DNA from: Bacteroidales bacterium
Lineage (GTDB): Bacteria; Bacteroidota; Bacteroidia; Bacteroidales; UBA932
Assembly: GCA_016290835.1 (NCBI GenBank)
Contig: JAEEVG010000022.1
Location: forward strand, 1-38,260
Direction of reading: 5' to 3'
Length of the DNA: 38,260 nt
This document shows positions 9,474-38,260 of the stretch, piece by piece. The position numbers and the translations under genes are program-made. The stretch's first letter is position 1, and each line of letters begins with the position of its first letter. The notes under the pieces were generated by a model, which saw only the letters and a program-made list of their open reading frames with translations, made no database searches and was not told the origin of the DNA.

Positions 9474-9476
9474 GTA

Positions 9477-13567: not shown

Positions 13568-15649
13568 ATGAAACGCATCATCCTCTTCCTGTCGATTCTC
13601 GCGTTGCTCTGCTCCTGCAACGGCAAAATCGACCGCGCCGCCCTCGTGGCCCGCAACAACCCCCACGTGACGGCCCTGGACCCGCTCGCCTCCCTGTCGG
13701 TCGGCAACGGCCGCTTCGCTTTCACGGCCGACGTGACCGGCCTGCAGACCTTCCCGGAGCGCTACAGTGCGGGCGTGCCCCTCGGCACCCAGTCGCAGTG
13801 GGGCTGGCATTCCTTCGCCAATCCGGATGAACTGAAGTTCGAAGAGACCCTGCTGCCCTACGACTTCGGCCGCGGCCACGAGGAGCTTTACGCCTGCCAG
13901 ATCCGCTTCGGGCGCGGGCAGGATGCTTCCAACTGGTACCGCATCAACCCGCACCGCCTGCACCTCGGCGTGATCGGTTTCGCCGGCATCGAGGAGGCCT
14001 CGTTGAGCGGGATCGACCAGACCCTGGATATGTGGAACGGGGTGCTCCGCTCCTCCTTCCTCGCCGCGGACAAGCGCTATGAGGTGCAGACCTCCTGCGA
14101 TCCCGACCGGGACCTGGTGGCCGTGTCGGTGAAGGCCGAGGTGCCGGTGGGCATCCGTTTCCGCCTGCCGTATCCGACCGGCGGCCATTCCGACGATGCC
14201 TGCGACTGGACCAAGGACGAGTTGCACAGCACCGAGATCGTCGCGCAGGGGGAGGGGGTTTCCATCATGCGGCATACCCTCGATGCGACCGTCTATTATA
14301 TCAAGGTCTCCTACGACAACGGCCGTTTGGAGATGGTCGGGCCCAATGAGGCCCGGCTGAGCGCCGAGGGCGGGGATCTGAGCTTCTCGGCCCTGTTCTG
14401 CGAGCAGCAGCCGGAGCTCACGGCCGAGGACTTGGCGGCTTCCCGCGCCGCTTCCGCCGCCTACTGGCAGAAGTTCTGGCAGGAGGGGGGTGCGGTGGAT
14501 TTCAGCCGCTGCACCGATTCGCGGGCCGCGGAGCTGGAGCGCCGCGTGGTGCTGAGCCAGTACCTGCTGGCCGTCAACTGCGCGAGCGACACGCCGCCCC
14601 AGGAAACGGGTCTGACCTACAACTCCTGGTACGGCAAGTTCCACATGGAGATGATCTGGTGGCACCAATCCCATTTCCCGCTCTGGGGCCACGAGGATCT
14701 GCTCGCCCGCAGCCTGGCCTGGTATGGCAAGGTCGAACCCGTGGCGCGTGCGATCGCCGAGCGCCAGGGCTTCAAGGGTGTGCGTTGGATGAAGATGACG
14801 GATCCTTCCGGACTGGAGGCTCCCTCCAACACGGGTTCCTTCCTAATCTGGCAGCAGCCGCACCTGATCTACCTCGCCGAGCTGTTATACCGCGCGAACC
14901 CTTCCCAGGAGATCCTCGATCAGTATTTCGACCTCATCCAGGAGACGGCCGAGTTCATGGCGGACTTCGTGACCTACGATGCGGAGAACGACCGTTATCT
15001 GCTCAAGGGCTGCATCGCCGCCCAGGAGACGCTCAAGGCGAACAAGACGGTCAATCCGCCCTTCGAGTTGTCCTACTGGCATTTCGGCCTGAGCACCGCG
15101 CAGCTCTGGCGTGAGCGCAAGGGGCTCGCGCGTGAGCCCAAGTGGGACGAGATCGTCGCCAAGCTCTCGCACCTCGCTTCCAAGGACGGACTCTACCTGG
15201 CCGCCGAGAGCGAGCCGGATACCTACGAGGATATCCGGATGTATTCCGACCATATGGCCGTGCTGGCTGCGCTGGGCGTGCTTCCGCAGACCCCGCAGAT
15301 GGAGCCGGAGTTGATGAAGAATACCTTCGACTGGGTCTATGACAATTGGAACTGGGACGAGACCTGGGGCTGGGATTTCCCGACCACCTGTATGAATGCC
15401 GTGCGCGTGGGCGAGCCCGAGAAGGCGCTCAACGCCCTGCTGATGGATCAGCGCACCAATATCTATCTGCCCAATGGCCACAACTACCAGGATGGCCGCC
15501 TGCGGGTCTATCTCCCGGGCAATGGCGGTCTGCTGACGGCCGTGGCGCTGATGTGCGCCGGCTGGGACGGCTGCACCGTCAAGAATCCGGGTTTCCCAAA
15601 AGATGGCACTTGGAATGTAAAGTGGGAAGGTATTAAACCGCTCCCTTAG
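13568..15649 (+). CDS. Six-hairpin glycosidase-like lipoprotein (GH65-like)
   Basis: A 693-residue lipoprotein. The signal peptide ends in ALLCSC with Cys17 as the lipid site. An N-terminal beta-sandwich (about 30-270) begins LDPLASLSVGNGRFAFTADV. It is followed by an (alpha/alpha)6 barrel with WYGKFHMEMIWWHQSHFPLW and DETWGWDFPTTCMNA. This arrangement resembles GH65 and related clan enzymes, but I cannot assign a numbered family or substrate. Candidate catalytic acids are the Glu in KFHMEM and Asp/Glu near DETWGWD. The start at 13568 was chosen over an upstream in-frame ATG (13451) lying within nrdG. It is 14 nt downstream of nrdG yet unrelated in function. Its stop interlocks with that of the PL1 gene. 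Confidence 0.75.
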   Translation: MKRIILFLSILALLCSCNGKIDRAALVARNNPHVTALDPLASLSVGNGRFAFTADVTGLQTFPERYSAGVPLGTQSQWGWHSFANPDELKFEETLLPYDFGRGHEELYACQIRFGRGQDASNWYRINPHRLHLGVIGFAGIEEASLSGIDQTLDMWNGVLRSSFLAADKRYEVQTSCDPDRDLVAVSVKAEVPVGIRFRLPYPTGGHSDDACDWTKDELHSTEIVAQGEGVSIMRHTLDATVYYIKVSYDNGRLEMVGPNEARLSAEGGDLSFSALFCEQQPELTAEDLAASRAASAAYWQKFWQEGGAVDFSRCTDSRAAELERRVVLSQYLLAVNCASDTPPQETGLTYNSWYGKFHMEMIWWHQSHFPLWGHEDLLARSLAWYGKVEPVARAIAERQGFKGVRWMKMTDPSGLEAPSNTGSFLIWQQPHLIYLAELLYRANPSQEILDQYFDLIQETAEFMADFVTYDAENDRYLLKGCIAAQETLKANKTVNPPFELSYWHFGLSTAQLWRERKGLAREPKWDEIVAKLSHLASKDGLYLAAESEPDTYEDIRMYSDHMAVLAALGVLPQTPQMEPELMKNTFDWVYDNWNWDETWGWDFPTTCMNAVRVGEPEKALNALLMDQRTNIYLPNGHNYQDGRLRVYLPGNGGLLTAVALMCAGWDGCTVKNPGFPKDGTWNVKWEGIKPLP

Positions 15650-16893
15650 CGGACGAGGGAGTTGAGGTAGGCTTCGATGTCGGGGTATTTGTGCTCCAGG
15701 GCATCGGGGATGCCGTTGCGGTTGAGGTCCGGGGCGGGTTCTTTGTGCGCGAGGACCGGGTAGCCGCCGCAATCGTCGGGCGTGTTGACGAAACCGCGGT
15801 CGCCCCAGGGGGCCGTGCCCGTGCGCACCTGCTCGACGACCTGGGCGTCGAAGGAGTCCCTGTGCAGGCTGCAGCCCACGTCTTTCAGAACGGCCTTGAG
15901 CAGGTCCGCGGGGCGCTTCTCCAGCGGGAAATCCATCCGCGGGAATTCCGTGTCCACGACCGCCTCTTCGGGATTCTTCCCTTTGACCGCGATGCGGTTG
16001 TCCGCCGTGGCGGCCGGCTCGCCCTCGATGAAGTTACCTTCGACGAAATAGCGGCTGGTGCCGTCGTCGGAGACGTTTAGGATGTGGGCGGGGTTGTCCG
16101 TGCCGGGCCCTGCCTTGTAGTAGTTATAGCAGAAGTTGATCTTGCCGCCTCGGCCGCCGCCGTAGGCCGGCATGAAACCCCAGTTATAGACGACGTTGCC
16201 GCGGTAGTCCACGTTCTCCGTACCCTCGACGGAGGAGAAGCGGGGGTTGCGGCTGGAATGGTGGGCGAGCAGGTTGTGGTGGAAAGTGGCGTTGAGCCCG
16301 CCCCAGATGCCGCCGAAGCCGTGCTGGCCCTTGGTGTGCTTGGACTGCCGCAGGCTGCAGGCGATCAGGCACCACTGGACCGTGAGGTTCTCGGTCTTGT
16401 AGATCGACAAGCATTCGTCGATGGACCAGGAGGCGCTGATGTGGTCGAGGATGACGTTCTTCTGGCCGTACTGCCCGCCGCCCACGGCATCGGAGTCGCG
16501 GGCGACCTTGTCGCCGAGACGGCAGCGGATGTAGCGCACGATGACATTGGAGGCATCGACGGTGAACTGGCAGTCGCAGAGGCAGATGCCGTCGCCGGGC
16601 GCACTCTGGCCGGCGATGGTGATGTCGTCGTTCTGGATGCGCAGGGGTGTCTCGAGGTGGATGTCGCCGTCTACTTCGAACACGACGATCCGCGGCCCGC
16701 TCGCCTCCACGGCCTCGCGCAGGCTCCCGGGCCCGTGGTCATTGAGGTTGGTGACGATCATCACACGGCCGCCGCGGCCGCCGGTGGTGTATTTCCCGAA
16801 GCCTTCGGCTCCGGGGAAGGCAAGGGGTTCGGTGGGGGCGGAAGTGCATCCGCAGGCCAGGATGGCCGCAAGGAGGTAGAGGAATCGTCTCAT
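15646..16893 (-). CDS. Pectate lyase family 1 lipoprotein
   Basis: A 415-residue right-handed beta-helix protein with a lipoprotein signal (ILACGC; Cys14 or Cys16). FPGAEGFGKYTTGGRGG and VTNLNDHGPGSLREAV are typical of Bacteroidetes PL1 enzymes. The helix contains IAGQSAPGDGICL, DHISASWSIDE and the segment HHSSRNPRFSS, whose Arg is the expected catalytic base. It would cut homogalacturonan by beta-elimination, using Ca2+, outside the cytoplasmic membrane. It has its own promoter (16918-16925) and is convergent with the six-hairpin gene. The C-terminus PDLNRNGIPDALE looks like a Ca2+-binding dockerin-type turn, common in this group. Whether it prefers pectate or rhamnogalacturonan regions is unknown. 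Confidence 0.88.
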   Translation of the reverse strand: MRRFLYLLAAILACGCTSAPTEPLAFPGAEGFGKYTTGGRGGRVMIVTNLNDHGPGSLREAVEASGPRIVVFEVDGDIHLETPLRIQNDDITIAGQSAPGDGICLCDCQFTVDASNVIVRYIRCRLGDKVARDSDAVGGGQYGQKNVILDHISASWSIDECLSIYKTENLTVQWCLIACSLRQSKHTKGQHGFGGIWGGLNATFHHNLLAHHSSRNPRFSSVEGTENVDYRGNVVYNWGFMPAYGGGRGGKINFCYNYYKAGPGTDNPAHILNVSDDGTSRYFVEGNFIEGEPAATADNRIAVKGKNPEEAVVDTEFPRMDFPLEKRPADLLKAVLKDVGCSLHRDSFDAQVVEQVRTGTAPWGDRGFVNTPDDCGGYPVLAHKEPAPDLNRNGIPDALEHKYPDIEAYLNSLVR

Positions 16894-16917
16894 CGGGGAT
16901 GGTTTCTAACGGTTTCC

Positions 16918-16925
16918 CAAATGTA
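16918..16925 (-). promoter_or_regulatory. -7 promoter box of the PL1 gene
   Basis: Minus strand TACATTTG, exact TAnnTTTG, 24 nt before the ATG at 16893. It lies just beyond the rhaT terminator hairpin. Confidence 0.6.
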
Positions 16926-16943
16926 AGCATTTTTATTGACAAA

Positions 16944-16972
16944 TTGCGGCGGCCCGGGTGGGGCCGCCGCAA
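16944..16972 (-). terminator. Terminator hairpin of the rhaBAT operon
   Basis: A perfect 12-bp stem (TTGCGGCGGCCC at 16944-16955 with its complement at 16961-16972) and a 5-nt loop, about 25 nt after the rhaT stop. On the minus strand it is followed by TTTGTC, so the T-tract is short. Confidence 0.65.
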
Positions 16973-16996
16973 AAGTGTGAGGTCGCAGGGTATGCG

Positions 16997-18025
16997 CTAG
17001 CCGATGAGCTGCGGGAGGAAGATGCTGAAGATGAGCACCGCCAGGCCGCAGAGCAGCACGGTGATGGTCTTCTTCGAGCAGCCCTTCCATTCCTTGAGGA
17101 TGATGCCCCAGACGTTGGAGAAGATGACGTTGAGCGACATCAGGATGCACCAGCTGAAGGTCAGCAGGACCGGGAAGTTCGTCAGGAAGCCCTTGCCGAG
17201 GCTCAGGCCGAAGAACTGGCTGTACCACAGCAAGCCCGCCAGGCAGCAGAAGATGAGGTTGTTGCCCCAGAGGGAGCCCTTGGCGTAGTCGCCGAAGGTC
17301 TTGTTCTTGCTGTTCTGGAAGAGGCAGTAGGCCGCATTGGTCAGGAACCCGCCGAAGGTCACGAGCATCGTGGCCGGAAGGGTCTCGAAGATGGGCTTAG
17401 TGCCCGGCAGGTGCAGCCCGGCGCCGAAGTTGAGGCCGATGTTGAAGCAGGCGCTCATCAGACCGCACAGCACGGCGATGACGATGCCCTTGCCGAAGTT
17501 GAAGTCCTTGACGGCTTTTTTCTTCTCCTCATCCGGCAGGGCGGCAGCCTTCATCGCACCGGCGATGCCGATGATGGCGATGCCGATGATGGTGACGACT
17601 ACGCCGATCCAGATGGCGGCGGTAAGAGTGTGGGCCTGTCCGGTGAGGACGGGACCGAGGATGGCGCCGAGACCGGAGCAGAGCCCGAGGGCGATGCTCT
17701 GGCCGAGGGCCACGCCGAGGTAGCGCATCGACAGGCCGAAGGTCAGGCCGCCGACACCCCACAGGGCACCGAAGAGGATGGTAAGCCAGGTGGCCTTCGG
17801 GTCGGCGTTCATCAGGCCGAGCAGGTCACCGAAGCTGCCGCCCGTCCCGGAAAGGGACAGGAGGGCGCCCAGGAACGGGAAGATCAGCCAGGCGAACACG
17901 CCCTGGACGAGCCAGTAGCTCTCCCAGCTCCACTGCTTGATCTTGTTGATCGGGACGTAGCAGCTCGACTGGCAGAACGACCCGATCGCAATGATCAGCA
18001 GACCTAAGAAAATAGAGGATCCCAT
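16997..18025 (-). CDS. rhaT: L-rhamnose:H+ symporter
   Basis: A 342-residue inner-membrane protein with ten hydrophobic segments, matching E. coli RhaT (344). Family-typical stretches are GSFCQSSCYVPINKIKQWSW near the N-terminus, WGVGGLTFGLSMRYLGVALG in the third helix region and GLMSACFNIGL in the middle. It imports L-rhamnose with a proton for RhaA. It starts 9 nt after the rhaA stop and is the last gene of rhaB-rhaA-rhaT, with a strong hairpin after it. Confidence 0.95.
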   Translation of the reverse strand: MGSSIFLGLLIIAIGSFCQSSCYVPINKIKQWSWESYWLVQGVFAWLIFPFLGALLSLSGTGGSFGDLLGLMNADPKATWLTILFGALWGVGGLTFGLSMRYLGVALGQSIALGLCSGLGAILGPVLTGQAHTLTAAIWIGVVVTIIGIAIIGIAGAMKAAALPDEEKKKAVKDFNFGKGIVIAVLCGLMSACFNIGLNFGAGLHLPGTKPIFETLPATMLVTFGGFLTNAAYCLFQNSKNKTFGDYAKGSLWGNNLIFCCLAGLLWYSQFFGLSLGKGFLTNFPVLLTFSWCILMSLNVIFSNVWGIILKEWKGCSKKTITVLLCGLAVLIFSIFLPQLIG

Positions 18026-18034
18026 AATCTCGGA

Positions 18035-19288
18035 TTAGCAGCGCTTGGAGGTGACGTCCTTCTCGTACTGCTCGATGCAACCGATGAACTCCTCGCCCAC
18101 GGGAACGCCGTTCTTGTAGTTGAAATAATCGAACACGGCGCCGAACGGCAGGGTCTTGGCCTCCTCGAGGAGGGCGAGACGCTGGAAGCCCTTTCCGGCA
18201 TCCTCGTACTCACGTAGTTTGGCGAGCGGCTCGAGCAGGGCGCTCAGCACGCACTTCTGCGTGGCGCGGGTACCGATCACATAGGCACCGATGCGGTTGA
18301 TGGCGGCGTCGAAGTAGTCCAGGCCGATGTGGCTGCGGTCGAGGGCGTCGGCACGCACGATCTCCTTGAAGAGGTCGAGGGTCTGGTCGTTCATGATGGT
18401 CACGTGGTCGGAGTCCCAGCGGATCGGGCGGGAGACGTGGAGCATCAGCTCAGGCACGAACAGGAGCAGGGAAGCGACCATGTCGGACACGTTCTCGGTC
18501 ATCTCATAGTGGCCGGTGTCGAGGGTGTACATCAGCTTGCGGGTGGCGCAGTAGCCGGCCACGAAATCGTGGCTGCCCACGGTGTAGCTCTCCAGGCCGA
18601 TGCCGAACAGCTTGGCCTCGAGGCAGGTCTTCATGCCCGGGAGTTCCTCGGCGAGGATCTCATCGAGGGCGGCGGCGAAGATTTCGCGATAGCGTTTGCG
18701 CTCCACGGTCTGGTCCTTGGAACCGTCGTGGACCCAGATGTTCATGATACAGGGATCGCCCTGCGCCTTGCCCATCGCGTCGGCGATGCGGCGGCAGCGC
18801 TTGGTGTGCTCGATCCAGAAGTCGCGGATGCCCTTGTCCGGGTTGGCCAGGGACAGGTCGCCGCTCTTCGGGTGGCCGAAGGAAGTGGAGTTGAAGTCGA
18901 GCTTCATGTTGTTCTCCTTGGCCCACTGAATCCAGCTCTCGAAGTGCTTGACTTCCACTTGGTCGCGATCGACGTACTTGCCGCCGAAGTCGCCGTAGAT
19001 CTCGTGGAGGTTGAGGCGGTGGTTGCCGGCGAGGAGGCTCTTGGCGAAGAGCACGTCGCCGCGGACCTCATCGATGTTGCGGGCGCGGCCCGGGTAGTTG
19101 CCGGTGGTCTGGATACCGCCGGACAAGCCGGCTGCGCTCTCGAAACCGATCACGTCGTCGGTCTGCCAGCAGTGCAGGGAGATGGGGGTCTTCTCGAGGG
19201 TGGCGACAGCCTTGTCGGTGTCGACGCCGATGGCTGCATAGCGCTCTTTGGCGATCTCGTACGCCTGGAGGATTTTGTTCTCTTTCAT
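18035..19288 (-). CDS. rhaA: L-rhamnose isomerase
   Basis: A 417-residue cytoplasmic TIM-barrel enzyme, near the 419 residues of E. coli RhaA, that converts L-rhamnose to L-rhamnulose. Metal- and substrate-site segments are visible: LDFNSTSFGHPKSGDLSLA, MNIWVHDGSKD, EAKLFGIGLESYTVGSHDF and LDTGHYEMTENVSDM. It lies 20 nt downstream of rhaB. No missing residue or truncation was noticed. Confidence 0.96.
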   Translation of the reverse strand: MKENKILQAYEIAKERYAAIGVDTDKAVATLEKTPISLHCWQTDDVIGFESAAGLSGGIQTTGNYPGRARNIDEVRGDVLFAKSLLAGNHRLNLHEIYGDFGGKYVDRDQVEVKHFESWIQWAKENNMKLDFNSTSFGHPKSGDLSLANPDKGIRDFWIEHTKRCRRIADAMGKAQGDPCIMNIWVHDGSKDQTVERKRYREIFAAALDEILAEELPGMKTCLEAKLFGIGLESYTVGSHDFVAGYCATRKLMYTLDTGHYEMTENVSDMVASLLLFVPELMLHVSRPIRWDSDHVTIMNDQTLDLFKEIVRADALDRSHIGLDYFDAAINRIGAYVIGTRATQKCVLSALLEPLAKLREYEDAGKGFQRLALLEEAKTLPFGAVFDYFNYKNGVPVGEEFIGCIEQYEKDVTSKRC

Positions 19289-28890: not shown

Positions 28891-31800
28891 TCAGTCCTTC
28901 AGATTCTTGACGAAGGCCGAGGGCGAGATGTTGAACTGCTTCTGGAAACTCGTCGCGAAATAAGAAGGGGAGGAGAAGCCCACCATATAGGCCACCTCGT
29001 TGATCCTGTATTTCTGCGAAGACAGCATCTCTGCCGCCTGCTTGAGGCGGCAGAGCCGTATATACTCGTTGATGTTGAGGCCGGTGTTGGCCTTGACCTT
29101 GCGGTAGAGCGTGGATTTGCTGGTCCCGATCAGGCCGGTCAGGGTCTCGATGCTGAGATCCTGTTCGGCCATGTGCTTCATCACGATGCCGTGGAGCTTC
29201 TCCATGAACTCTTCATCTATCTTGCTGGCATTCACGCTGTTGAAATGCGTGAGCGGAGAGTTGGTGAACTGCTTGTAGGAGATTTCCCGGTTCTTGAAGA
29301 GGTTGGCGATGTTGGCCCGGAGCAGTTCGATCGGGAAGGGCTTCTCGATATAGCCGTCCGCACCCACCTCGAGGGTCTGCAGGCGCGTCTCCATCCCGAC
29401 GGCCGCCGTGAGCAGCAGGACCGGCAGGTGGCTGAACTCCATGTTGGTCTTGATGGCGTTGCAGAGCTGGCAGCCGTCCATCACGGGCATCATTACGTCG
29501 CTGACCACCAGGTCGACACGCTCCTGGCGCACTTTCTCCATCGCATCCTGGCCGTTGACGGCGGTCACGATGTTGTAGTCATCGGAGAGCTCGCGGGCCA
29601 GGTAGGAACGCATTTCCGCGGAATCTTCGACGATCAGCAGCGTATGGCGGCTGCTGTCGTAGTCCGCGGAACTGTCCGCCTGCCCGCTGACCGCCTTCCG
29701 TTCCTCCATCACGATGGTGGGTGTCTGCTGGCGTATCGGCAGTTCGAGCACGAAGGAATTGCAGTCGCGCCGGTTCGTGTCGAGGAAGAGCTGGCCGCCG
29801 TGCAGTTCGGCGAGCGAGCGGGCGAAAGGCAGGCCCAGACCGGTGCCCTTTCCCTTATCGGCGTCGCCGACCTGGTAGAAGACCTCGAAAATCTTTTCGG
29901 CCTCGCGGAGGGGGATCACCGAGCCGTTGCTGTCGACGCGAAGCACAGCCATCGTACCGTCGCCGGACGGCCGCAGGGAGACGTCGATGCGGTCTTTGGT
30001 GTATTTCACGCCGTTGGAGAGCAGGTTCCCGAGGATCTTCTCCACGGAGTCCCGCACGCACATTACCTCGAACGGACCGTCCGGGAGGTCGACCGCAAGG
30101 GTGATGTTCTGCTCGGCGGCCATCTGCTCGAAGTGGGCGCAGGACTTGCGTACGAGCCCCGTGAGGTCTTCTTTGAGGAAGACGGGCCGGATCTCGTTTT
30201 TCTCCATCTTGCGCAGGTCGAGCAGCTGGTTGGTCAGGTTCAGCAGGCGGTCGGTGTTGGCTTGGATGGTCAGCATGTCCTTCTCCGCCTTCGGGGTATA
30301 TTGCTTTTCGGCGATCAGCTTGTCCAGCGGCATCTTGATGAGGGTCAGCGGGGTGCGGATCTCGTGGGTGATGTTGGTGAAGAAGTTGATCTTGGCTTCG
30401 TAGATTTCCTTCTGTTTCTGGTTTTCGACCTTGGTGAGGTGGCGGGCCCGGTCGCGCCGGCGTTTCATATTCAGTTCGCGTAGGAAGACGGCGAGCAGGG
30501 CCAGCAAGGCCAGGGCATAGATGATCTTGGCGGTCGTGGACCACAGGGGCGGGGCGAGGATGTCGAAACGCAGGCTCTTCCGGGAAATGGGCGTATCCGA
30601 TCCGACGATGCCCACTTCCAGGAGGTAGCGTCCGGGCGGGAGCCCGGAGAAGTTGACCTCATTGTCGGTCAGGGTGGCGGCGAGCGTCTCGTGTCCGTTG
30701 TGCATCAGCCGGTAGGAGTAGACCACTTGCTGCAGAATGGAAAAATCCGGAGCGGCGAAACTGATTTCCAGCAGGGAGGCGTCCCTGGATTTGATCCGGA
30801 GGTGTTCGGTCGTGAGGGCGCTCCGGCCCGGCTCGTGCAGGATTTGGATTCCGTCGGCGTTGCGCGCTTCGATGTGGGTGATGTAGAGCGGATAGTCACG
30901 CACGGCCTTTTTCATCTTGGCGGGGGAGAAAGCGATCAAGCCGTTGGTGTTGCCCATATAGATCATCCCCCCTCGGGTGGTCAGTACGGCACCGTAGGAG
31001 AACTGGCTGCCGATGACCTGCTGGCGTTCGAAGAGCAGGTCCTCGATCTGGCCGGTTTCGGCATTGATGCGCGTGATGCCGCGGGTGGAGGAGACCCACA
31101 GGATGCCCTCTTCGTCCTCGGCCACGGCACAGGTCACGTTGGACAGCAGGCCGTTCCGGCGGGTCAGGGACTGCAGTTTGGGATCAGCCGGGGCGGGGTA
31201 GGGGCCGGTATAGCAGATCCCGCCGCCTTCGGTGGTGATCCAGATGCGGTGGCGGCTGTCTTCGAAGAAGGAGGTGATGCGGTCCGCGGTCAGGCCCCCT
31301 TCCGTATCGGTTCTGAAGTGCGGGGTGTATGCGCCCTGGGCATCGCGGACATAATAGCCGTTGCCGTAGGTGCCGATCCAGAGGTTGTCCCGGCTGTCTT
31401 CGTACAGGGAGTGGATGAAGTCCCGTCCGGCCGCCTCCTCGAATTCGAAGGTGTCCAGTTCCCGGCGGTAGCGGAACAGGCCGTTCTGGGTCCCCGCCAG
31501 GATGCTGCCGTCGTCGGTGCGGATACCGCAGCCGCTGCCGGGTACGGCCAGGGGATAGAACTGCTTGATACGCTTGGCGTTGCGGTCGAAGCGGTAGACG
31601 CCGTCCCCGAAGGTGAAGATCCAGAGGTCATCCCCGTCGATGGCGAGGCCCTGCATATTCAGGTTCGGCTTGATGACGAAGTTCTCGCTCCGGGTCGGGT
31701 CGGTGGGGTTGAGGCGGTTCAGTCCGCCGTCCTCCGTGCAGAACCAGACGCTGCCATCCGGATCTGCGATGATCGAACGGACGACCGAGCCCAGCATCGA

Positions 31801-32787
31801 ACTTCCCGAGGGGTTCGGATAGTAGATGGAGAAGGCGCCTTGCTTGTCCTGCCAGACATTCAGGCCGGCGTAATAGGTGCCGACCCAGACATTGCCGGAC
31901 TTGTCCTTGTCCAGACTGGTGATGAAACTGGCCGAGAGGGAGTTCGGATCCTGTTCGTGGTGGTAGACTTCCGCCAGTTCGCCGGTATCCGTCTGTTTCA
32001 CGAACAGGCCGTCGTTGGTGCCGACCCAATACTCGCCCGGACGCCGCTCGAGGATGTGGCGGATCTCGCGGCCCTCGATCCGGAGAATGGTCTCGGTGTT
32101 GAGGGTGACGGTGTCCAGGAGGAGGATCTCGCCGTCCGTCGCTGCGGCAAGCAGTTTGCCGTTGTCGGCCGGCCGGATGATGGAGAGACGCCGGGGGAAC
32201 GCGACCATGTTGAAGCGGTCGCGGCGTTTGTCGTAATTGAACAGGCTGCCGTCGGTCAGGACGACCCAGACGGCGTCATAGGAATCGATCGCGATATAGG
32301 CCGGGGAACCCTCCTGGAACGCATAGTCGTGGAAGGCTCCTTCTTTCTTGTCATAGCGGAACAGACGGTTGCCGGCAAACCAGACATTGCCCTTGAGGTC
32401 CGGGACGAGGTGGAAGCAGAGCGTCTCGCCCAGCTGGCCGAAGGAGGTCGTCTCGCCCGAAGCGGGGTCGTAGCAGGAGATGCCCGCCGAGTTGGAGAAC
32501 CAGAGCAGGCCGTCCTCATCCTCGCCGAGATCCATGCTGGCCAGATTCGAGGTCCGGGCGGAGCCGTCCTCTCCGAGCTCGCGGAAATCATAGCCGTCGA
32601 AGCGGCACAGGCCGTCGCGGGTGCCGATCCAGACGAAGCCATAACGGTCCTGATAGGTGCAATGGATGGTATTGGAGGGAAGTCCCTCGTAGGTGGTATA
32701 ATGCTCGAAATAGTAATAAGGCGCAGCCGTCAGGGCGCCGGAAAAGAGCGTCGACAGAAACAGGATAGCGCTAAATAATTGTTTCAT
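28891..32787 (-). CDS. Hybrid two-component system regulator (HTCS): sensor kinase, receiver and AraC DNA-binding domain in one protein
   Basis: A 1,298-residue inner-membrane regulator. After a signal peptide (MKQLFSAILFLSTLFSGALTA) come about fourteen propeller-type repeats (for example DRYGFVWIGTRDGLCRFDGY), a Y_Y_Y domain, and a membrane helix (about 745-765). Then come HisKA with His808 in FFTNITHEIRTPLTL, an ATPase with GKGTGLGLPFARS, a receiver with Asp1097 in VVSDVMMPVMDG, and a C-terminal AraC helix-turn-helix ending INEVAYMVGFSSPSYFATSF. Such proteins bind an oligosaccharide in the periplasm and switch on polysaccharide genes. The likely targets are the divergent GH54 run and perhaps the other pectin genes; the ligand is unknown. 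ATG 32787 was preferred over the TTG at 32820. Confidence 0.95.
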   Translation of the reverse strand: MKQLFSAILFLSTLFSGALTAAPYYYFEHYTTYEGLPSNTIHCTYQDRYGFVWIGTRDGLCRFDGYDFRELGEDGSARTSNLASMDLGEDEDGLLWFSNSAGISCYDPASGETTSFGQLGETLCFHLVPDLKGNVWFAGNRLFRYDKKEGAFHDYAFQEGSPAYIAIDSYDAVWVVLTDGSLFNYDKRRDRFNMVAFPRRLSIIRPADNGKLLAAATDGEILLLDTVTLNTETILRIEGREIRHILERRPGEYWVGTNDGLFVKQTDTGELAEVYHHEQDPNSLSASFITSLDKDKSGNVWVGTYYAGLNVWQDKQGAFSIYYPNPSGSSMLGSVVRSIIADPDGSVWFCTEDGGLNRLNPTDPTRSENFVIKPNLNMQGLAIDGDDLWIFTFGDGVYRFDRNAKRIKQFYPLAVPGSGCGIRTDDGSILAGTQNGLFRYRRELDTFEFEEAAGRDFIHSLYEDSRDNLWIGTYGNGYYVRDAQGAYTPHFRTDTEGGLTADRITSFFEDSRHRIWITTEGGGICYTGPYPAPADPKLQSLTRRNGLLSNVTCAVAEDEEGILWVSSTRGITRINAETGQIEDLLFERQQVIGSQFSYGAVLTTRGGMIYMGNTNGLIAFSPAKMKKAVRDYPLYITHIEARNADGIQILHEPGRSALTTEHLRIKSRDASLLEISFAAPDFSILQQVVYSYRLMHNGHETLAATLTDNEVNFSGLPPGRYLLEVGIVGSDTPISRKSLRFDILAPPLWSTTAKIIYALALLALLAVFLRELNMKRRRDRARHLTKVENQKQKEIYEAKINFFTNITHEIRTPLTLIKMPLDKLIAEKQYTPKAEKDMLTIQANTDRLLNLTNQLLDLRKMEKNEIRPVFLKEDLTGLVRKSCAHFEQMAAEQNITLAVDLPDGPFEVMCVRDSVEKILGNLLSNGVKYTKDRIDVSLRPSGDGTMAVLRVDSNGSVIPLREAEKIFEVFYQVGDADKGKGTGLGLPFARSLAELHGGQLFLDTNRRDCNSFVLELPIRQQTPTIVMEERKAVSGQADSSADYDSSRHTLLIVEDSAEMRSYLARELSDDYNIVTAVNGQDAMEKVRQERVDLVVSDVMMPVMDGCQLCNAIKTNMEFSHLPVLLLTAAVGMETRLQTLEVGADGYIEKPFPIELLRANIANLFKNREISYKQFTNSPLTHFNSVNASKIDEEFMEKLHGIVMKHMAEQDLSIETLTGLIGTSKSTLYRKVKANTGLNINEYIRLCRLKQAAEMLSSQKYRINEVAYMVGFSSPSYFATSFQKQFNISPSAFVKNLKD

Positions 32788-32803
32788 CAAGACATTGTTT
32801 TTC

Positions 32804-32881
32804 GACTCGCAAGATAGCAAATAGTTCTTTAACTATTGATTCAATCGTTTTTGTTTTTTTTTCAATGCGGGGACTCGCAAG
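32804..32881. repeat. Direct repeat GACTCGCAAG upstream of the HTCS gene
   Basis: GACTCGCAAG occurs at 32804-32813 and again at 32872-32881, 68 nt apart start to start. Both are in the HTCS leader/promoter region. AraC-type domains often bind direct repeats, so these are candidate regulator sites, possibly for autoregulation. Ten bases is short, and chance is possible. Confidence 0.4.
32820..32845. repeat. Two overlapping inverted repeats upstream of the HTCS gene
   Basis: AATAGTT-CTTT-AACTATT (32820-32837) is a perfect 7-bp inverted repeat. ATTGA-T-TCAAT (32835-32845) is a second palindrome that shares its edge. They lie between the direct repeats at 32804 and 32872, in an AT-rich patch. 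They could be operators or an RNA hairpin in the HTCS leader. Confidence 0.4.
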
Positions 32882-33188: not shown

Positions 33189-36100
33189 ATGAAAAAAATC
33201 TTGTTCGGAATCAGCGTCGGCCTGGTACTTCTGGCCGCCGTGATTGCTTGTAATCGTATGGCCGGGTCCCAGGCGCTTGCCCGCCCCGAGGGCCCTTGTG
33301 ATGTGTATGCCCGGGGCGGCACCCCCTGCGTGGCTGCGCACAGTACGACCCGTGCCTTGTATGCCGCCTATGACGGCCCTCTGTATCAGGTGATGCGCCA
33401 GTCGGACGGCAAGACCCTGGATATCGGCGTGGTGAAAGCCTCCGCCGGCGACCCGGGCGGCTATGCCGACGCTGCGGCTCAGGATGCCTTCTGCCAGGAT
33501 ACCTACTGCTGGATCACGGTCCTGTATGACCAGTCCGGCAAAGGCAACCACCTCTACCAGGCTCCGCGGGGCGGTTTCAGCGGCCCGGCGATGGGCGGCT
33601 ACAACAATGTCCCCGTTTCCGACTGGGCTCCCGTGTCCGTGATGGGCCACAAAGTCTATGGTATTTTCATCGCTCCGGGCATGGGCTTGCGTCTGAATGA
33701 TCCGGTCGGCACCGCGGTCGACGACCAGGCCGAGGGTCAGTACTGGGTCATCAGCGGCCAGCACTACAACTCCGGCTGCTGCTTCGACTACGGCAACGCC
33801 GAAACCGACAGCCGCGACGACGGCGACGGCACGATGGAGACCACCTACTTCGGCAACTCCCGGGGCTGGTACTATGGCGAAGGAGATGGCCCGTGGCTGA
33901 TGACCGACCAGGAGAACAACCTGGTGGGCTGCGTCAACCCGGATCCGAACGACAAATACTGCCGCGGCCTGAATACCGTGTCCTGGCGTTTCGTCACCGC
34001 GACCGCCGACGGCGAGCCGCATCACTGGCGCTCCATGGGCGGCAATGCCCAGGAGGGAGAACTGAAAGTTTACTATGACGGCGGCCGCATCCAGAATCCG
34101 CGCAGCAGCTACGACCCCATGCGCAAGCAGGGCGCCATCCTGTTGGGCAACGGCGGCGACAACAGCAACGGCTCCGCCGGTACGTTCTATGAGGGCGCGA
34201 TGACTGCCGCCGGCACCTTCCCGACCCAGGAACTCAACCAGCAGATCCAGGCGAATGTCGTGGCCGCCTGCTATCGCGTGGCGAGCGTCGAGGTGTTCCC
34301 CGCGCTCCAGGACGCCCGTCCGTCCAACGTACAGAGCTTCGAGCCCGGGCAGACCCTACGCACCGCGGTTCGCTTTGTCAACAATACCGGAGCGCCCATC
34401 GAGGGGCTCTCGATCGCACTCAAGACCCCGCGCGGCTGGAAAGCTTCCGCGAACGGCGAGCCCGTGATGAAGGTCCCTTACACTGTCGCCCCGGACCAGA
34501 TGGTGGTGGCGGAGTTCGACGTGACCGCCGGTTCTTCCCCGTTTGCGGGAGACCTGGTGGCCATGGCGGCCTGGAAGGGTGAGGGCGTCTCCTTCAGTGA
34601 AACGGGCCGGCTCAAGGTGCACAGCACCCCCGCCGTCAAGATCAACGAGTTCAGCATTTCCGACGGCTTCATCGAACTCTACAATGCTTCCGAGAGCAGT
34701 GTAGACATCTCCGGATGGACGGTCCGCCAGCACGCGACGCACATTCCCGCTTTCTCGGATATCCGCATTCCGTCCGGCACCCGGATCGCCCCGAAGGGCT
34801 TCTATCTGCTCGGGATGGCGAATTCCGGCCTCGCCGTGAATGCCGCCAAGGGTGACAAGACGATCTACCTCCGCAGCGTGGAAGGTTTCCGCGAGGGAGA
34901 CGAGATCCGGATCGGCGGCGAAACGCGCACGGTCAAGTCCGTCAGCGCCCCGCAGCCCACTCCGGTGGATCCCGCCGCGATGATGCGCCGTCCGGCCGCT
35001 GCGCCGGGTGTGCCCACGACGGTGTGGCAGCCCCTGCCGGGCGGCCACGGCATCGAGTTCCCCGCCGGTGTGACCAACATCCCGGTCACCTCTACCTTCG
35101 GATTCGAGGTGGGGCAGAAGATGGCCCTCGGCTATGGCGCCGAGCGTCCTGCCGTTTCCAATAATTTGGAGAAATATGAAGTCGTGACGGTGACCGCGGT
35201 CGGCAAACCGGGCACGCAGGGCTACCTGTCGATGGATGCCAAGCCGGGCGACACCAATATCAAGGTCTCTTCCACGGCGAACATCTCCGTGGGTGACAAG
35301 ATCCGCCTCGACATCGCGAGCGAAGGCCACGGCATCGAGACCGTAACCGTGACCAAGGTCGGCACGCCTTCGGCGCGCAACACCCTGGGCGGCCCCCTGC
35401 GTCCGGATGAGGACGCGGGCACCGGCCTGGACATCGCCGAACCGCTGAAGTTCTTCCATTCCTCCAATATGCCGTACAGCGTGAACGGTACGGGTATCAG
35501 TTTCGAGCCGGCCACCAAGTATCCGCACTACAGCAACGAGCCCGTGCTCGCCCTCTGCTATGCCATCGAACTGGACAAGGCGCTCTCTTCCGCCCATCCG
35601 ATCGATGAGGCGGTGACCGGCGGAAGCGCTGTCGCCGCCGGCGCCTATGCGGGCGCCGTCCCGGCCGACCTGCTCTTCGGCGGCCCGGCCCTCTCCGATA
35701 CGGGCGGCAGCATCCTGCTCCGCGATGCCCGCGGCCACGTGGCCGACGCCCTGAACTTCGGTCTGCTCGTGGATCCCTGGCTCTCCGAGGGTTATCAGGC
35801 GGATTCCGGTGCCAACGCACCGGGCAACTTCGTGCCCACGCCTTCTGCTTCCCGCCGCTTCGGCGCCCTCCCGGGTGCGACGGCCTCCGTCAGTGCCGGC
35901 CGCTATCCCGACGGAGCCGACCTGGATGACAACAAGAATGACTTCCGCGTCCAGCAGACCTTCGGCCTGGCCGCTGCCGCTGAGGCCGGCGCGGACAATA
36001 TCAAGCTCCTCTCGGTGCAGGGCATCACGCCCGGTTCGTCCCTCGTCTTCGGACGCGGGGCGGATGCCGCGGTGGTCGAGGTTGCTGAAGTCGGTTCTCC

Positions 36101-36431
36101 CGGCGCGACCGTCCTCTCGGCTCCCGCCGGTCCCGGCGCCCGGAGCCTGACCGTCCTCTCCGCCCAGGGCTTCGTGCCCGGCCAGGTCGTCCTCGTCGGT
36201 GCCGAGAAGGCCGAGGTCGCGGAGGTGATCATCCCGCGCGGCCGGCGTCTGCCGCCCGCCGAGATGCTCCAGAAACTGGTGCTCAAGACGCCGCTCCGCC
36301 AGTCCCACAAGGCCTCTGATCCGGTCTGTGGCACGGGTGTGACCCTGAAAGCGCCCCTGAAGGCGGCTGCGGCGCCCGGTGCACCGGTCACTTCTGCACA
36401 GCCTACCCCCGGCGCGCCCAACCGGTATTAG
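33189..36431 (+). CDS. Multidomain GH54 alpha-L-arabinofuranosidase lipoprotein with NEW3 and lamin-tail domains
   Basis: A 1,080-residue lipoprotein (AAVIAC, Cys21). Residues 35-355 are strikingly like the catalytic domain of fungal AbfB: GPCDVYARGGTPCVAAHSTT, YDQSGKGNHLYQAP, CCFDYGNAET and GGDNSNGSAGTFYEG. Glu205 (nucleophile) and Asp324 (acid/base) are in place. So are the three disulfide pairs of AbfB: Cys37-Cys47, Cys102-Cys107 and the vicinal Cys197-Cys198. Cys248/Cys258 is a possible extra pair. It would release arabinose from arabinan or arabinoxylan. A NEW3-like domain (about 365-480) follows, then a lamin-tail domain (from about 481) interrupted by repeat modules and ending PTPGAPNRY. 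Fungal enzymes carry CBM42 instead. In-frame starts from 33054 were rejected because they precede the promoter. Confidence 0.9.
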   Translation: MKKILFGISVGLVLLAAVIACNRMAGSQALARPEGPCDVYARGGTPCVAAHSTTRALYAAYDGPLYQVMRQSDGKTLDIGVVKASAGDPGGYADAAAQDAFCQDTYCWITVLYDQSGKGNHLYQAPRGGFSGPAMGGYNNVPVSDWAPVSVMGHKVYGIFIAPGMGLRLNDPVGTAVDDQAEGQYWVISGQHYNSGCCFDYGNAETDSRDDGDGTMETTYFGNSRGWYYGEGDGPWLMTDQENNLVGCVNPDPNDKYCRGLNTVSWRFVTATADGEPHHWRSMGGNAQEGELKVYYDGGRIQNPRSSYDPMRKQGAILLGNGGDNSNGSAGTFYEGAMTAAGTFPTQELNQQIQANVVAACYRVASVEVFPALQDARPSNVQSFEPGQTLRTAVRFVNNTGAPIEGLSIALKTPRGWKASANGEPVMKVPYTVAPDQMVVAEFDVTAGSSPFAGDLVAMAAWKGEGVSFSETGRLKVHSTPAVKINEFSISDGFIELYNASESSVDISGWTVRQHATHIPAFSDIRIPSGTRIAPKGFYLLGMANSGLAVNAAKGDKTIYLRSVEGFREGDEIRIGGETRTVKSVSAPQPTPVDPAAMMRRPAAAPGVPTTVWQPLPGGHGIEFPAGVTNIPVTSTFGFEVGQKMALGYGAERPAVSNNLEKYEVVTVTAVGKPGTQGYLSMDAKPGDTNIKVSSTANISVGDKIRLDIASEGHGIETVTVTKVGTPSARNTLGGPLRPDEDAGTGLDIAEPLKFFHSSNMPYSVNGTGISFEPATKYPHYSNEPVLALCYAIELDKALSSAHPIDEAVTGGSAVAAGAYAGAVPADLLFGGPALSDTGGSILLRDARGHVADALNFGLLVDPWLSEGYQADSGANAPGNFVPTPSASRRFGALPGATASVSAGRYPDGADLDDNKNDFRVQQTFGLAAAAEAGADNIKLLSVQGITPGSSLVFGRGADAAVVEVAEVGSPGATVLSAPAGPGARSLTVLSAQGFVPGQVVLVGAEKAEVAEVIIPRGRRLPPAEMLQKLVLKTPLRQSHKASDPVCGTGVTLKAPLKAAAAPGAPVTSAQPTPGAPNRY
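34839..36240 (+). repeat. Five degenerate repeat modules in the GH54 protein C-terminal half
   Basis: Modules share a pattern like A-x-x-G-D-x-x-I-x-(V/L)-x-S-x-x-G-(F/I)-x-x-G-(D/Q)-x-(I/V)-x-(I/L), followed by a V-x-x-V strand. Approximate copies: 34839-34950, 35050-35215, 35216-35390, 35960-36120 and 36121-36240. The first three lie inside the lamin-tail domain and the last two near its C-terminal end (35680-35950 holds the rest of that domain). The function is unknown; they may be spacers or ligand-binding strands. Confidence 0.55.
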
Positions 36432-36435
36432 TCGC

Positions 36436-37554
36436 GTGGAGGACCTGCATCGTTTCAAGGTCCTGCTGCTGCCGCTTTGTGCAGCCTGCCTGGCGCTCTC
36501 GCTCTGGATGCTCCTGCATTCCTGGGCGGGGGCGCCGATGGCGGGTTGCGGGGCCCTCAGTGCCTGCGACAGCGTCATGAACAGCCCCTGGGCCTATGTG
36601 CTGGGGGGCGTGCCGGTAAGCCTGCCTGCCGCCTCCCTCTATGTCCTGCTGTTGATCTGTCTGCTCTTCCTGGGCTCGGATACCTCGCTGGACCGTATGC
36701 TTTGGGGCGTGGCCTTGCCGCTGCTTTCCGGCTGCATCGTGGGAGCCGCCCTGTGGTTCTGCTGGCTGCAAATCGGCGTGTTGCACCGCTTCTGCCCATA
36801 TTGTACGGTCCTGCACTTGCTGGGCTGCGTTGCTGCGGTGCTGATCCTGCGACGTTCTTTCCGCGCCGGCCGGCACGCCGTACCCGTCTTTGTCGCCGGC
36901 CTTTTCGCCGCCGCGGTTTTCGCCTTCGTGCAAGCGCGGACGGTACCTGAAACAATCTATGACAGCGGCAGCACGGGGGAGGCTTTGCCCGTTTTTACCG
37001 ATGCGGAAGTGCCCGCCCTGGGTGCGGAAGACGCTCCGGTGGAAATCACCCTGCTGTTCGATTTCCAGTGCGTCCATTGCCGCAGGCTCCACCGCCTCCT
37101 GCCCGAGCTGCTGGACAAGACCGGCGGGCGGCTGCGCATCCGGCTCTGCCCGGTCCCGCTCAGCAGCGCCTGCAACCCGTACATCCCGGCTTCCGGGACC
37201 GACCGTTTCGCCGGCTCGTGTGCCCTCACGCGGCTTGCGCTCGCCATCTGGTATGCTGCTCCGCAGGCCGCACCGGCCTATTGGGATGCCCTGCTGGACG
37301 AGAATGCTCCGGATCCGGAGCAGGCGGAAGCGCAGGCGCGCGCCCTGCTCGGCGAGGCCTTTGAAAGCGCCCTCTCCGATGCGCGCATCGATGCCTACCT
37401 GAAGCGGGTTTACGAATTGTTCGGACGGACCTCCACCTTGGATAAGAGCGGGGTGCCGCGCCTGATCTTCGGCGGACGCTGGCTCGTGCCCGAGGTGGAC
37501 GAGACGGAACCGCTCCTTTCCCTCATCCGCTCGGAATTGGGCGCGGAATTGTGA
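36436..37554 (+). CDS. VKOR-DsbA fusion, disulfide-forming enzyme
   Basis: A 372-residue membrane protein. Residues 8-160 form a vitamin K epoxide reductase-like four- to five-helix domain with loop cysteines Cys38 and Cys44 (GCGALSACDSV) and the active CPYC (Cys120, Cys123). Residues about 190-372 form a periplasmic thioredoxin/DsbA-like domain with CVHC (Cys212, Cys215) after a cis-Pro-type SGVPRLIFGG segment. Such fusions oxidise cysteines in exported proteins and pass electrons to quinone. The GTG start at 36436 lies 4 nt after the GH54 stop. An ATG at 36379 would overlap GH54 by 53 nt and lacks support. Co-transcription suggests GH54, with its three predicted disulfides, is a main client. 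Confidence 0.85.
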   Translation: MEDLHRFKVLLLPLCAACLALSLWMLLHSWAGAPMAGCGALSACDSVMNSPWAYVLGGVPVSLPAASLYVLLLICLLFLGSDTSLDRMLWGVALPLLSGCIVGAALWFCWLQIGVLHRFCPYCTVLHLLGCVAAVLILRRSFRAGRHAVPVFVAGLFAAAVFAFVQARTVPETIYDSGSTGEALPVFTDAEVPALGAEDAPVEITLLFDFQCVHCRRLHRLLPELLDKTGGRLRIRLCPVPLSSACNPYIPASGTDRFAGSCALTRLALAIWYAAPQAAPAYWDALLDENAPDPEQAEAQARALLGEAFESALSDARIDAYLKRVYELFGRTSTLDKSGVPRLIFGGRWLVPEVDETEPLLSLIRSELGAEL

Positions 37555-37593
37555 ATTTGACTTTTTTTGCACTTACCATATTTATCAACCGTT

Positions 37594-38260
37594 ATGTATA
37601 AGCATCTTTTACCCTGCCTGGCCGCCCTGATCCTGGGGCAGGCTTTTCTCCCCGCACAGGAGAAGTACGAAATCAACGGCATCGACATGACGCGGGTTGA
37701 ATATGAGCATTTCAAGAATCCCGACCGGGAATTCCGGGGTGTGCGCTTCATCAGCCTGAACCTCGACCGCTCCACGGAGCAGTCCATGCGGGATGCCGTC
37801 GAACGCGATTTCAAGACCGACAAATGGGGGTCCTTCGTGCTGATTGCCGGCGGTGGCAGTACGGCCGGCCTGTCCGACGAATACCTCGCCGGTTCCGGCC
37901 GGCAGCGGAAGGAGACCGGCATCGCCTACCTCAGCGAGGAATATTTCAAACTCTACCGGGCCGCCATCGAGAAGGGCCTGGAACTGGGCTTCAAGTGCAC
38001 CACGCTTTATGATGAGTGGGAGTATCCGAGCGGTATGGTGGAAGGCCTGTTCTACAGCCGCTACCCGCAGGACTGCGCCAAGAGCCTGGAGATGGAGGAA
38101 AAGGATGTGTCGGGCCGTGCCCAGACCGTGACCCTCACCATGCCCGAAAGCGGGATCTATATGGGGTCCGTGCTGATGAACCTCGACACCTACGAAAGGC
38201 GGGATGTCAGCAGCTCCTTCCGCGACGGGACCCTGCGCTGCAATGTCCCCGCGGGCAACT
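37594..38260 (+). CDS. GH106-like alpha-L-rhamnosidase, N-terminal part (runs off the window end)
   Basis: An open frame from the ATG at 37594 to the window edge, 222 codons. A signal peptide (MYKHLLPCLAALILGQAFLP, cleavage near Ala21) is followed by FKNPDREFRGVRFISLNLDR, AYLSEEYFKLYRAAIEKGLE and TTLYDEWEYPSGMVEGLFYS, matching the first barrel segment of GH106 enzymes (family form YDE..(W/Y)PSG). The catalytic residues lie beyond the edge. GH106 removes terminal alpha-L-rhamnose, which would feed RhaT/RhaA/RhaB. It follows VKOR-DsbA after 39 nt. A related uncharacterised family with the same N-terminal fold is possible. Confidence 0.72.
   Translation, partial: MYKHLLPCLAALILGQAFLPAQEKYEINGIDMTRVEYEHFKNPDREFRGVRFISLNLDRSTEQSMRDAVERDFKTDKWGSFVLIAGGGSTAGLSDEYLAGSGRQRKETGIAYLSEEYFKLYRAAIEKGLELGFKCTTLYDEWEYPSGMVEGLFYSRYPQDCAKSLEMEEKDVSGRAQTVTLTMPESGIYMGSVLMNLDTYERRDVSSSFRDGTLRCNVPAGN

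Follow-up and report, generated by a model that had tools for sequence, protein, structure and literature searches.

The window studied here is a 38,260-nt stretch of DNA from a Bacteroidales bacterium (GTDB lineage UBA932; assembly GCA_016290835.1, contig JAEEVG010000022.1, positions 1 to 38,260 of the forward strand), and the positions in Table 1 refer to it. Towards its 3′ end a gene of glycoside hydrolase family GH54, which by family membership encodes a predicted α-L-arabinofuranosidase, is followed by a gene that fuses a VKOR domain to a DsbA-like domain. A first-pass annotation, made from the sequence of the window, had proposed that this fusion is a disulfide-forming oxidase dedicated to the folding of the GH54 enzyme. 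As stated there, only 4 nt separate the GH54 stop from the start of the oxidase, and a gap of this size leaves no room for a terminator between the two genes.

Table 1. Features of the GH54/VKOR-DsbA locus and their positions in the window
Feature	Position	Strand	Remarks
GH54 gene (predicted α-L-arabinofuranosidase)	33189..36431	+	ATG start, 1080 aa; lipoprotein-like signal, NEW3, LTD, long C-terminal region
GH54 catalytic domain (PF09206)	33294..34274	+	residues 36-362
First cysteine pair, C37/C47	33297..33329	+	position matches fungal AbfB
Second cysteine pair, C102/C107	33492..33509	+	fungal AbfB alignment
Vicinal cysteines, C197-C198	33777..33782	+	Cys in 112/112 rows of the cysteine alignment
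Fourth cysteine pair, C248/C258	33930..33962	+	stretch specific to four-pair GH54 class
Intergenic gap GH54/VKOR-DsbA	36432..36435	+	4 nt
VKOR-DsbA fusion gene	36436..37554	+	GTG start, 372 aa
VKOR domain	36463..36843	+	C38/C44 and C120-P-Y-C123
DsbA-like domain	37012..37479	+	C212-V-H-C215, C246/C262, P341
GH106 α-L-rhamnosidase gene (start)	37567..38260	+	cut by contig end; neighbour outside the conserved pair
Hybrid two-component regulator	28891..32820	-	upstream of GH54

The GH54 enzyme and its cysteines

The PF09206 profile matches the catalytic domain over its full length (profile positions 1-314 of 315, 394.5 bits against a cut-off of 25, expectation value (E) 4e-118), and the fungal AbfB structures 6sxt, 1wd3, 6sxr and 2d43 align over the same domain with E of 7e-109 to 6e-108. 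Pfam searches also place NEW3 and LTD domains on the protein. In accordance with the first-pass annotation, cysteines are found at all three AbfB disulfide positions: C37/C47, C102/C107 and the vicinal C197-C198. In AbfB the first two positions form disulfide bonds as well. According to PMC12102755, the vicinal disulfide of the fungal structure 1wd4 is in contact with the arabinofuranose in the active site; its formation should therefore matter for catalysis.

C248/C258 is the possible fourth pair mentioned in the annotation. In this region the fungal sequence is shorter by four residues and, according to the alignment, has no cysteine. In a cysteine alignment of 112 GH54 rows, duplicates included, C248/C258 is present in 90/90 rows of one class of GH54 (the four-pair class) and in 0/22 rows of the other (the three-pair class), and can thus not be attributed to chance. 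A lipoprotein-like cysteine, Cys21 (window 33249-33251), was read by eye, and its column holds cysteine in only 22/64 adjacent rows; as the column is not conserved in the class, anchoring seems to differ between relatives.

The VKOR-DsbA fusion

The first part of the fusion belongs to the VKOR family (PF07884, 52.3 bits, cut-off 27.5). The second part stays below the curated cut-off of PF01323 (DSBA; 20.5 bits against 25.6) and passes that of the Thioredoxin_4 profile PF13462 instead (34.5 bits against 23.2); with a thioredoxin-like fold, a CxxC motif and a cis-proline it was assigned to the DsbA-like proteins. The AlphaFold model of the fusion has a mean predicted local distance difference test score (pLDDT) of 92.1. 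It resembles the DsbA-like structures ScsC, DsbA and BdbD (E of 3e-7 at best), and a match to Synechococcus VKOR extends further along the model (E of 3.5e-5); by sequence, the VKOR part reaches only E of 1e-4 to 2e-3 with the Synechococcus VKOR structures. C38/C44 correspond to the VKOR loop cysteines, C120-P-Y-C123 to the VKOR active site and C212-V-H-C215 to the DsbA-like one, and P341 lies at the cis-Pro position.

Conservation was determined over 58 GH54/VKOR-DsbA pairs, duplicates and oxidases of ≤330 aa being excluded. C120, C123, C212, C215 and P341 are retained in 58/58 pairs and C38/C44 in 57/58. The DsbA domain has two more invariant cysteines, C246 and C262 (58/58), which perhaps form a structural or relay disulfide. 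Identity over the pairs has a median of 82% (minimum 73%) for GH54 and of 37% (minimum 29%) for VKOR-DsbA. The two identity matrices correlate with a Mantel r of 0.78, and 0/2000 permutations gave a value as high.

Recurrence of the gene pair

GH54 loci were collected by a scan of one genome per species; this gave 252 loci, and the best 80 by likeness to the query were used. In 56 of these 80, VKOR-DsbA lies directly downstream on the same strand; 14 loci have no oxidase there and 10 are cut, which means that GH54 ends within 600 nt of a contig end. Addition of the window's own genome and of genomes of its family, with de-duplication, yielded 87 distinct GH54 genes of the four-pair class: 61 with the oxidase directly downstream, 15 without, and 11 cut by contig ends. 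The oxidase is thus conserved beside one client in 61/76 genes that have room downstream. L073, L074 and L132 are duplicates of G193, G134 and G144; they were kept in the 80-locus count and in the cysteine rows and left out of the distinct counts and the trees. In 49 of the 61 adjacent pairs the gap is at most 30 nt, counted from the last sense codon with the longest frames and with overlaps included. In four of the 14 loci without an adjacent oxidase one stands at a distance: about 550 nt behind an early-ending frame in L080, 3.1 kb further on in L128, and on the opposite strand, at 6.4 kb, in L104 and L108. The pair occurs in Bacteroidota, Planctomycetota, Lentisphaerota and Verrucomicrobiota.

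Within the window's family, at a VKOR match threshold of E 0.001, GH54 was found in 9/199 genomes and VKOR in 18/199 (17 over the cut-off), and all nine GH54 genomes have VKOR. VKOR-DsbA directly follows a four-pair GH54 on one contig in eight of the nine; in the seven besides the window, the gaps, again counted from the last sense codon, are 7-11 nt. In the ninth genome, G161, the contig with the oxidase begins with a GH54 tail that is 88% identical to that of G014 and ends just before the oxidase, so that adjacency holds in 9/9 GH54-bearing genomes, in G161 by way of a split contig. VKOR without GH54 was found in nine other genomes of the family. For seven of them the profile of the oxidase subfamily scores 34 bits or nothing, against ~430-550 bits for full-length paired oxidases, so these seven VKORs are of another kind; the remaining two (G059, G092) were left unscored.

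A search that started from the oxidase found the subfamily in 3/393 genomes of the order, with GH54 adjacent in 3/3. Surveys at phylum level returned too few GH54 genes for an unbiased count across phyla: in Bacteroidota 6/395 genomes gave a match, full-length only in the window genome and partial in the other five (28.7-38.7 bits), and in Planctomycetota 1/159, this one being the genome used as survey centre. The genes up to 8 kb from the pair were compared for 60 paired loci. If frames antisense to GH54 are disregarded, none of the other gene families was counted in more than 13 of them; here genes were grouped by simple BLAST, contig ends truncate some of the loci, and L046, a partial GH54, was left out, as it was from the GH54 tree. 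The gene after the oxidase varies. As the pair is kept in 61/76 genes across four phyla and in 9/9 family genomes, the coupling is not a local coincidence; a chance neighbourhood was ruled out by the family, locus and order-wide surveys together with the GH54 tree.

Two classes of GH54

The GH54 tree was built from 108 rows and 319 columns with the stretch of the fourth pair omitted; it is a quick tree with support from the Shimodaira-Hasegawa-like approximate likelihood ratio test (SH-aLRT) only. It splits at a support of 100 into the four-pair class (86 rows) and the three-pair class (22 rows). Nearly all members of both classes have the three fungal cysteine pairs, though C102/C107 is missing from some three-pair GH54s. 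What distinguishes the class in which pairing occurs is the fourth pair alone, and unpaired members of that class carry C248/C258 too.

With the split between the two classes as root, eight changes between the paired and the unpaired state were counted. The early branches of the four-pair class, which belong to Planctomycetota, Lentisphaerota and Verrucomicrobiota, are mostly paired. The largest loss of adjacency concerns one clade of eight rows, which includes a second GH54 gene of the window genome on contig C48. The six genomes of this clade all retain this VKOR-DsbA subfamily, and two of them have the oxidase 6.4 kb from a GH54. As a separate observation, a three-pair GH54 stands directly behind the oxidase in L070, L093, L112, L117 and L127 on the same strand and in L067 on the opposite strand, which results in the order four-pair GH54, oxidase, three-pair GH54.

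Exceptions and other disulfide machinery

Several observations weigh against a redox partnership between the two proteins, or at least against an exclusive one. Adjacency alone does not prove a redox relation, and two genes that are inherited together will co-diverge in any case. The 80-locus set was retrieved by GH54 and is biased toward sequences near the window GH54. The family genomes are related, and the association of GH54 with VKOR there has a Fisher p of 4e-11 by genome and of only 0.09 by genus. Among the three genomes of the oxidase-first search one is the window's own and another (G691) possibly the same as L124, which leaves one that is clearly new. The predicted structure of GH54 is poor (pLDDT 34.3) and gives no C248-C258 distance, so that a bond between these residues is deduced from the sequence alone.

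The oxidase is also never directly downstream of a three-pair GH54 (distinct genes: 0 adjacent, 21 not, 1 cut). The idea that pairing tracks the three fungal cysteine pairs was rejected, as the unpaired GH54s keep these pairs. The genome search proposed in the first-pass annotation thus shows a widespread pairing that does not simply follow the three fungal pairs. In the window genome GH54 is present twice, on contigs C62 (the window) and C48. The C48 protein (C48:5677-8790, L005; 1037 aa) has the same eight catalytic-domain cysteines as the window GH54, and no oxidase was found on its 11.4-kb contig. Read by eye, the genes around the C48 gene resemble those for GH43, GH2, an esterase and an arabinogalactanase.

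In searches of 27 whole genomes, VKOR was present in 18. Six genomes with a paired GH54 all gave a match. Out of 12 genomes with a non-adjacent GH54, nine have VKOR; in the other three (L120, L134, L135) an uncut four-pair GH54 is present, yet neither VKOR nor DsbB was found genome-wide. These would be either incomplete bins or users of another oxidant. Nine genomes have a cut GH54. VKOR lies at a contig start in three of them (L071, L078, L091), and in L078 the sequence upstream of the oxidase codes for the end of a GH54; no VKOR was found anywhere in the other six (L058, L063, L101, L103, L107, L130), which may be incomplete bins or have lost the contig. DsbB above the cut-off was found in 0/24 and 0/11 genomes searched, and control genomes were positive in 6/14; G014 has a partial DsbB-like match below the threshold (20.3 bits against 22.1). 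A Thioredoxin_4 search for further DsbA-like proteins gave matches in 5/11 genomes, each at the fusion itself, and in 0/3 genomes of the window's own genus; this search is insensitive, as it missed the fusion in G134, G161 and G193, and divergent DsbA-like proteins may therefore be present.

The oxidase is furthermore found beside other enzymes. In four genomes with an unpaired GH54 it adjoins carboxylesterases: PF00135 matches lie beside it in L198, L199 and, on both sides, L202, and the neighbour in L203 is a carboxylesterase by alignment to these. The carboxylesterases near the oxidase have cysteines in common and their oxidases form one clade, and they are a possible second type of client. 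These genomes, though only four in number, suggest a wider rule by which disulfide-bearing hydrolases bring the oxidase along. In L197 and L201 the oxidase has other surroundings. The number of cysteines was rejected as a mark of a client: by a simple signal-peptide filter and gene picking, which make for a noisy count, 73 GH54 proteins contain 1.03% Cys and 265 other exported proteins near the loci 1.12%, so GH54 is not richer than these. The other exported proteins show no bias toward even numbers of cysteines (112 even, 145 odd, 8 without).

Surroundings of the pair and the host genome

The other genes of the window include GH28, a GDSL esterase, rhamnose isomerase, RhaT and the hybrid two-component regulator, which would be the local regulator. 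The frame that begins at 37567 is not assigned to a Pfam family directly; contig C40 carries a nearly identical copy of it, and this copy belongs to GH106 (PF17132). Together with this downstream GH106 gene, the window genes would fit a rhamnogalacturonan locus. At window 15646-19288 and 7656-10799, a rhamnose isomerase, a rhamnose transporter, a fucose isomerase and a major facilitator superfamily transporter lie near pectin genes.

VKOR is present twice in the window genome, on contigs C62 and C40. The stretch C40:1-3531, at a contig start, is 91.7% identical to window 34726-38260, which covers the 3′ half of the pair, and represents either a duplication or the version of a second strain within the bin. 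In the window's own genus (g1), neither GH54 nor VKOR is present in 18 listed genomes. For this reason, either the window genome gained the locus by transfer or the bin, with 3% contamination, includes foreign contigs. Genus g15 of the same family has both GH54 and VKOR.

Discussion

The GH54 and VKOR-DsbA genes are in our judgement likely to be a functional unit in which the DsbA domain oxidises the exported GH54; probably, then, the enzyme comes with a folding helper for itself. It is best read as a portable, client-coupled disulfide oxidase, a variant of the kind known from DsbL/DsbI and AssT. The two genes would be co-transcribed. GH54 would be exported via its signal sequence and its disulfides, the vicinal bond included, would form outside the cytoplasm, where the CxHC site of the DsbA domain would oxidise the enzyme by disulfide transfer as it folds. 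The fused VKOR domain would then re-oxidise the DsbA domain and pass the electrons to a quinone. Regeneration of DsbA and reduction of quinone by VKOR enzymes are stated in the abstract of PMC11208910. In this scheme GH54 would need the oxidase for its folding.

The dedication claimed in the first-pass annotation holds as a conserved coupling (61/76 genes; 9/9 in the family). Strict, exclusive dedication to GH54 is unsupported; the C48 GH54, the three-pair GH54s, the VKOR-less genomes and the carboxylesterase loci argue against it. Other exported enzymes of the same cell may be substrates of the oxidase as well, for instance the second GH54 or, in relatives, the carboxylesterases. The oxidase seems to be an accessory gene that moves together with its client, as it is the sole enzyme of its kind found in the window genome.

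That last finding would also suit a general oxidase for all exported proteins which stands in the locus by chance, as would the cysteines of other exported proteins and the unpaired C48 GH54 in the same genome. We consider such a general role unlikely. Since 181/199 family genomes have no VKOR match and the 18 own-genus genomes have none either, the oxidase is not a housekeeping enzyme in the family; moreover, the oxidase stays beside GH54 in several phyla though the remaining surroundings change, and the lack of an even-cysteine bias in other exported proteins points the same way. Two genes moved between bacteria as a block, with an adjacency that is inherited and functionally meaningless, would account for the patchy distribution of full-length GH54 (9/199 family, 1/395 Bacteroidota and 1/159 Planctomycetota genomes), which points to horizontal transfer. 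Adjacency among close relatives is not independent, and the co-divergence fits joint inheritance as well. However, VKOR-DsbA has diverged down to 29% identity with its catalytic residues and its position kept, and the genes that flank the pair differ, which makes a meaningless block improbable.

A service to another neighbour, GH106 or other pectin enzymes, has very little in its favour in our view. GH106 directly follows the oxidase in the window, and in four genomes the oxidase is found among carboxylesterases that share cysteines. However, GH106 takes this place in 2/61 paired rows only (the window and L060) and was for this reason rejected as partner of the oxidase; among the loci retrieved, no partner other than GH54 is constant, though they were retrieved by GH54.

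The pair resembles several known systems in part. The fungal GH54 enzyme AbfB (1wd3/1wd4) shares the catalytic domain and the cysteines at the three pair positions, whereas the window GH54 in addition has the fourth cysteine pair, NEW3, LTD and the long C-terminal region. The fungus folds AbfB in the endoplasmic reticulum with host machinery. In the methylamine dehydrogenase operon, MauD and MauE are client-linked disulfide helpers of different families and with a different client. Synechococcus VKOR (3kp9, 4nv2, 4nv5, 4nv6) has the VKOR fold, the VKOR cysteines and a fused redox domain as well; unlike its plain thioredoxin, the fused domain of the window protein is DsbA-like with inserted helices. 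In E. coli and Salmonella, DsbL/DsbI and AssT likewise tie a DsbA-type protein and a membrane oxidase to one exported enzyme; DsbI is of the DsbB type. According to PMC6067686, DsbL/DsbI is a separate accessory pair beside the general DsbA/DsbB. In contrast to DsbL/DsbI, VKOR and DsbA are fused in the window, and no DsbB above the cut-off was found.

In the open-licence literature searched we found nothing that joins GH54 with VKOR or polysaccharide utilization loci with VKOR/DsbA disulfide formation, and nothing on VKOR-DsbA in Bacteroidetes/Bacteroides or on GH54 disulfides in Bacteroidetes. Among the listed papers on bacterial VKOR-DsbA no title names a glycosidase, and a term search of the VKOR phylogeny PMC4555120 gave no mention of Bacteroid- or Planctomyc-. 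GH54 in rumen metagenomes is already known as such. If the coupling holds, the pair is a directly testable case of a client with its oxidase and offers a rule for finding others; in practice, production of such GH54s should then include the partner or use an oxidising host.

In a wider sense, where no general disulfide pathway can be recognised, as in some Bacteroidota and a few bacteria of other phyla, disulfide formation might be a portable accessory function that is gained and lost along with certain extracellular enzymes. Four-pair GH54 would have retained the fused oxidase across several phyla in a module of two genes, and a single lineage would have put the subfamily among carboxylesterases instead. 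We see the chances of this broader picture as evenly balanced. If the proposed coupling is true, a locus for polysaccharide degradation can bring along the folding catalyst that one of its enzymes uses, and this would explain how fungal-type glycosidases with an active-site disulfide occur in bacteria without a detected Dsb system.

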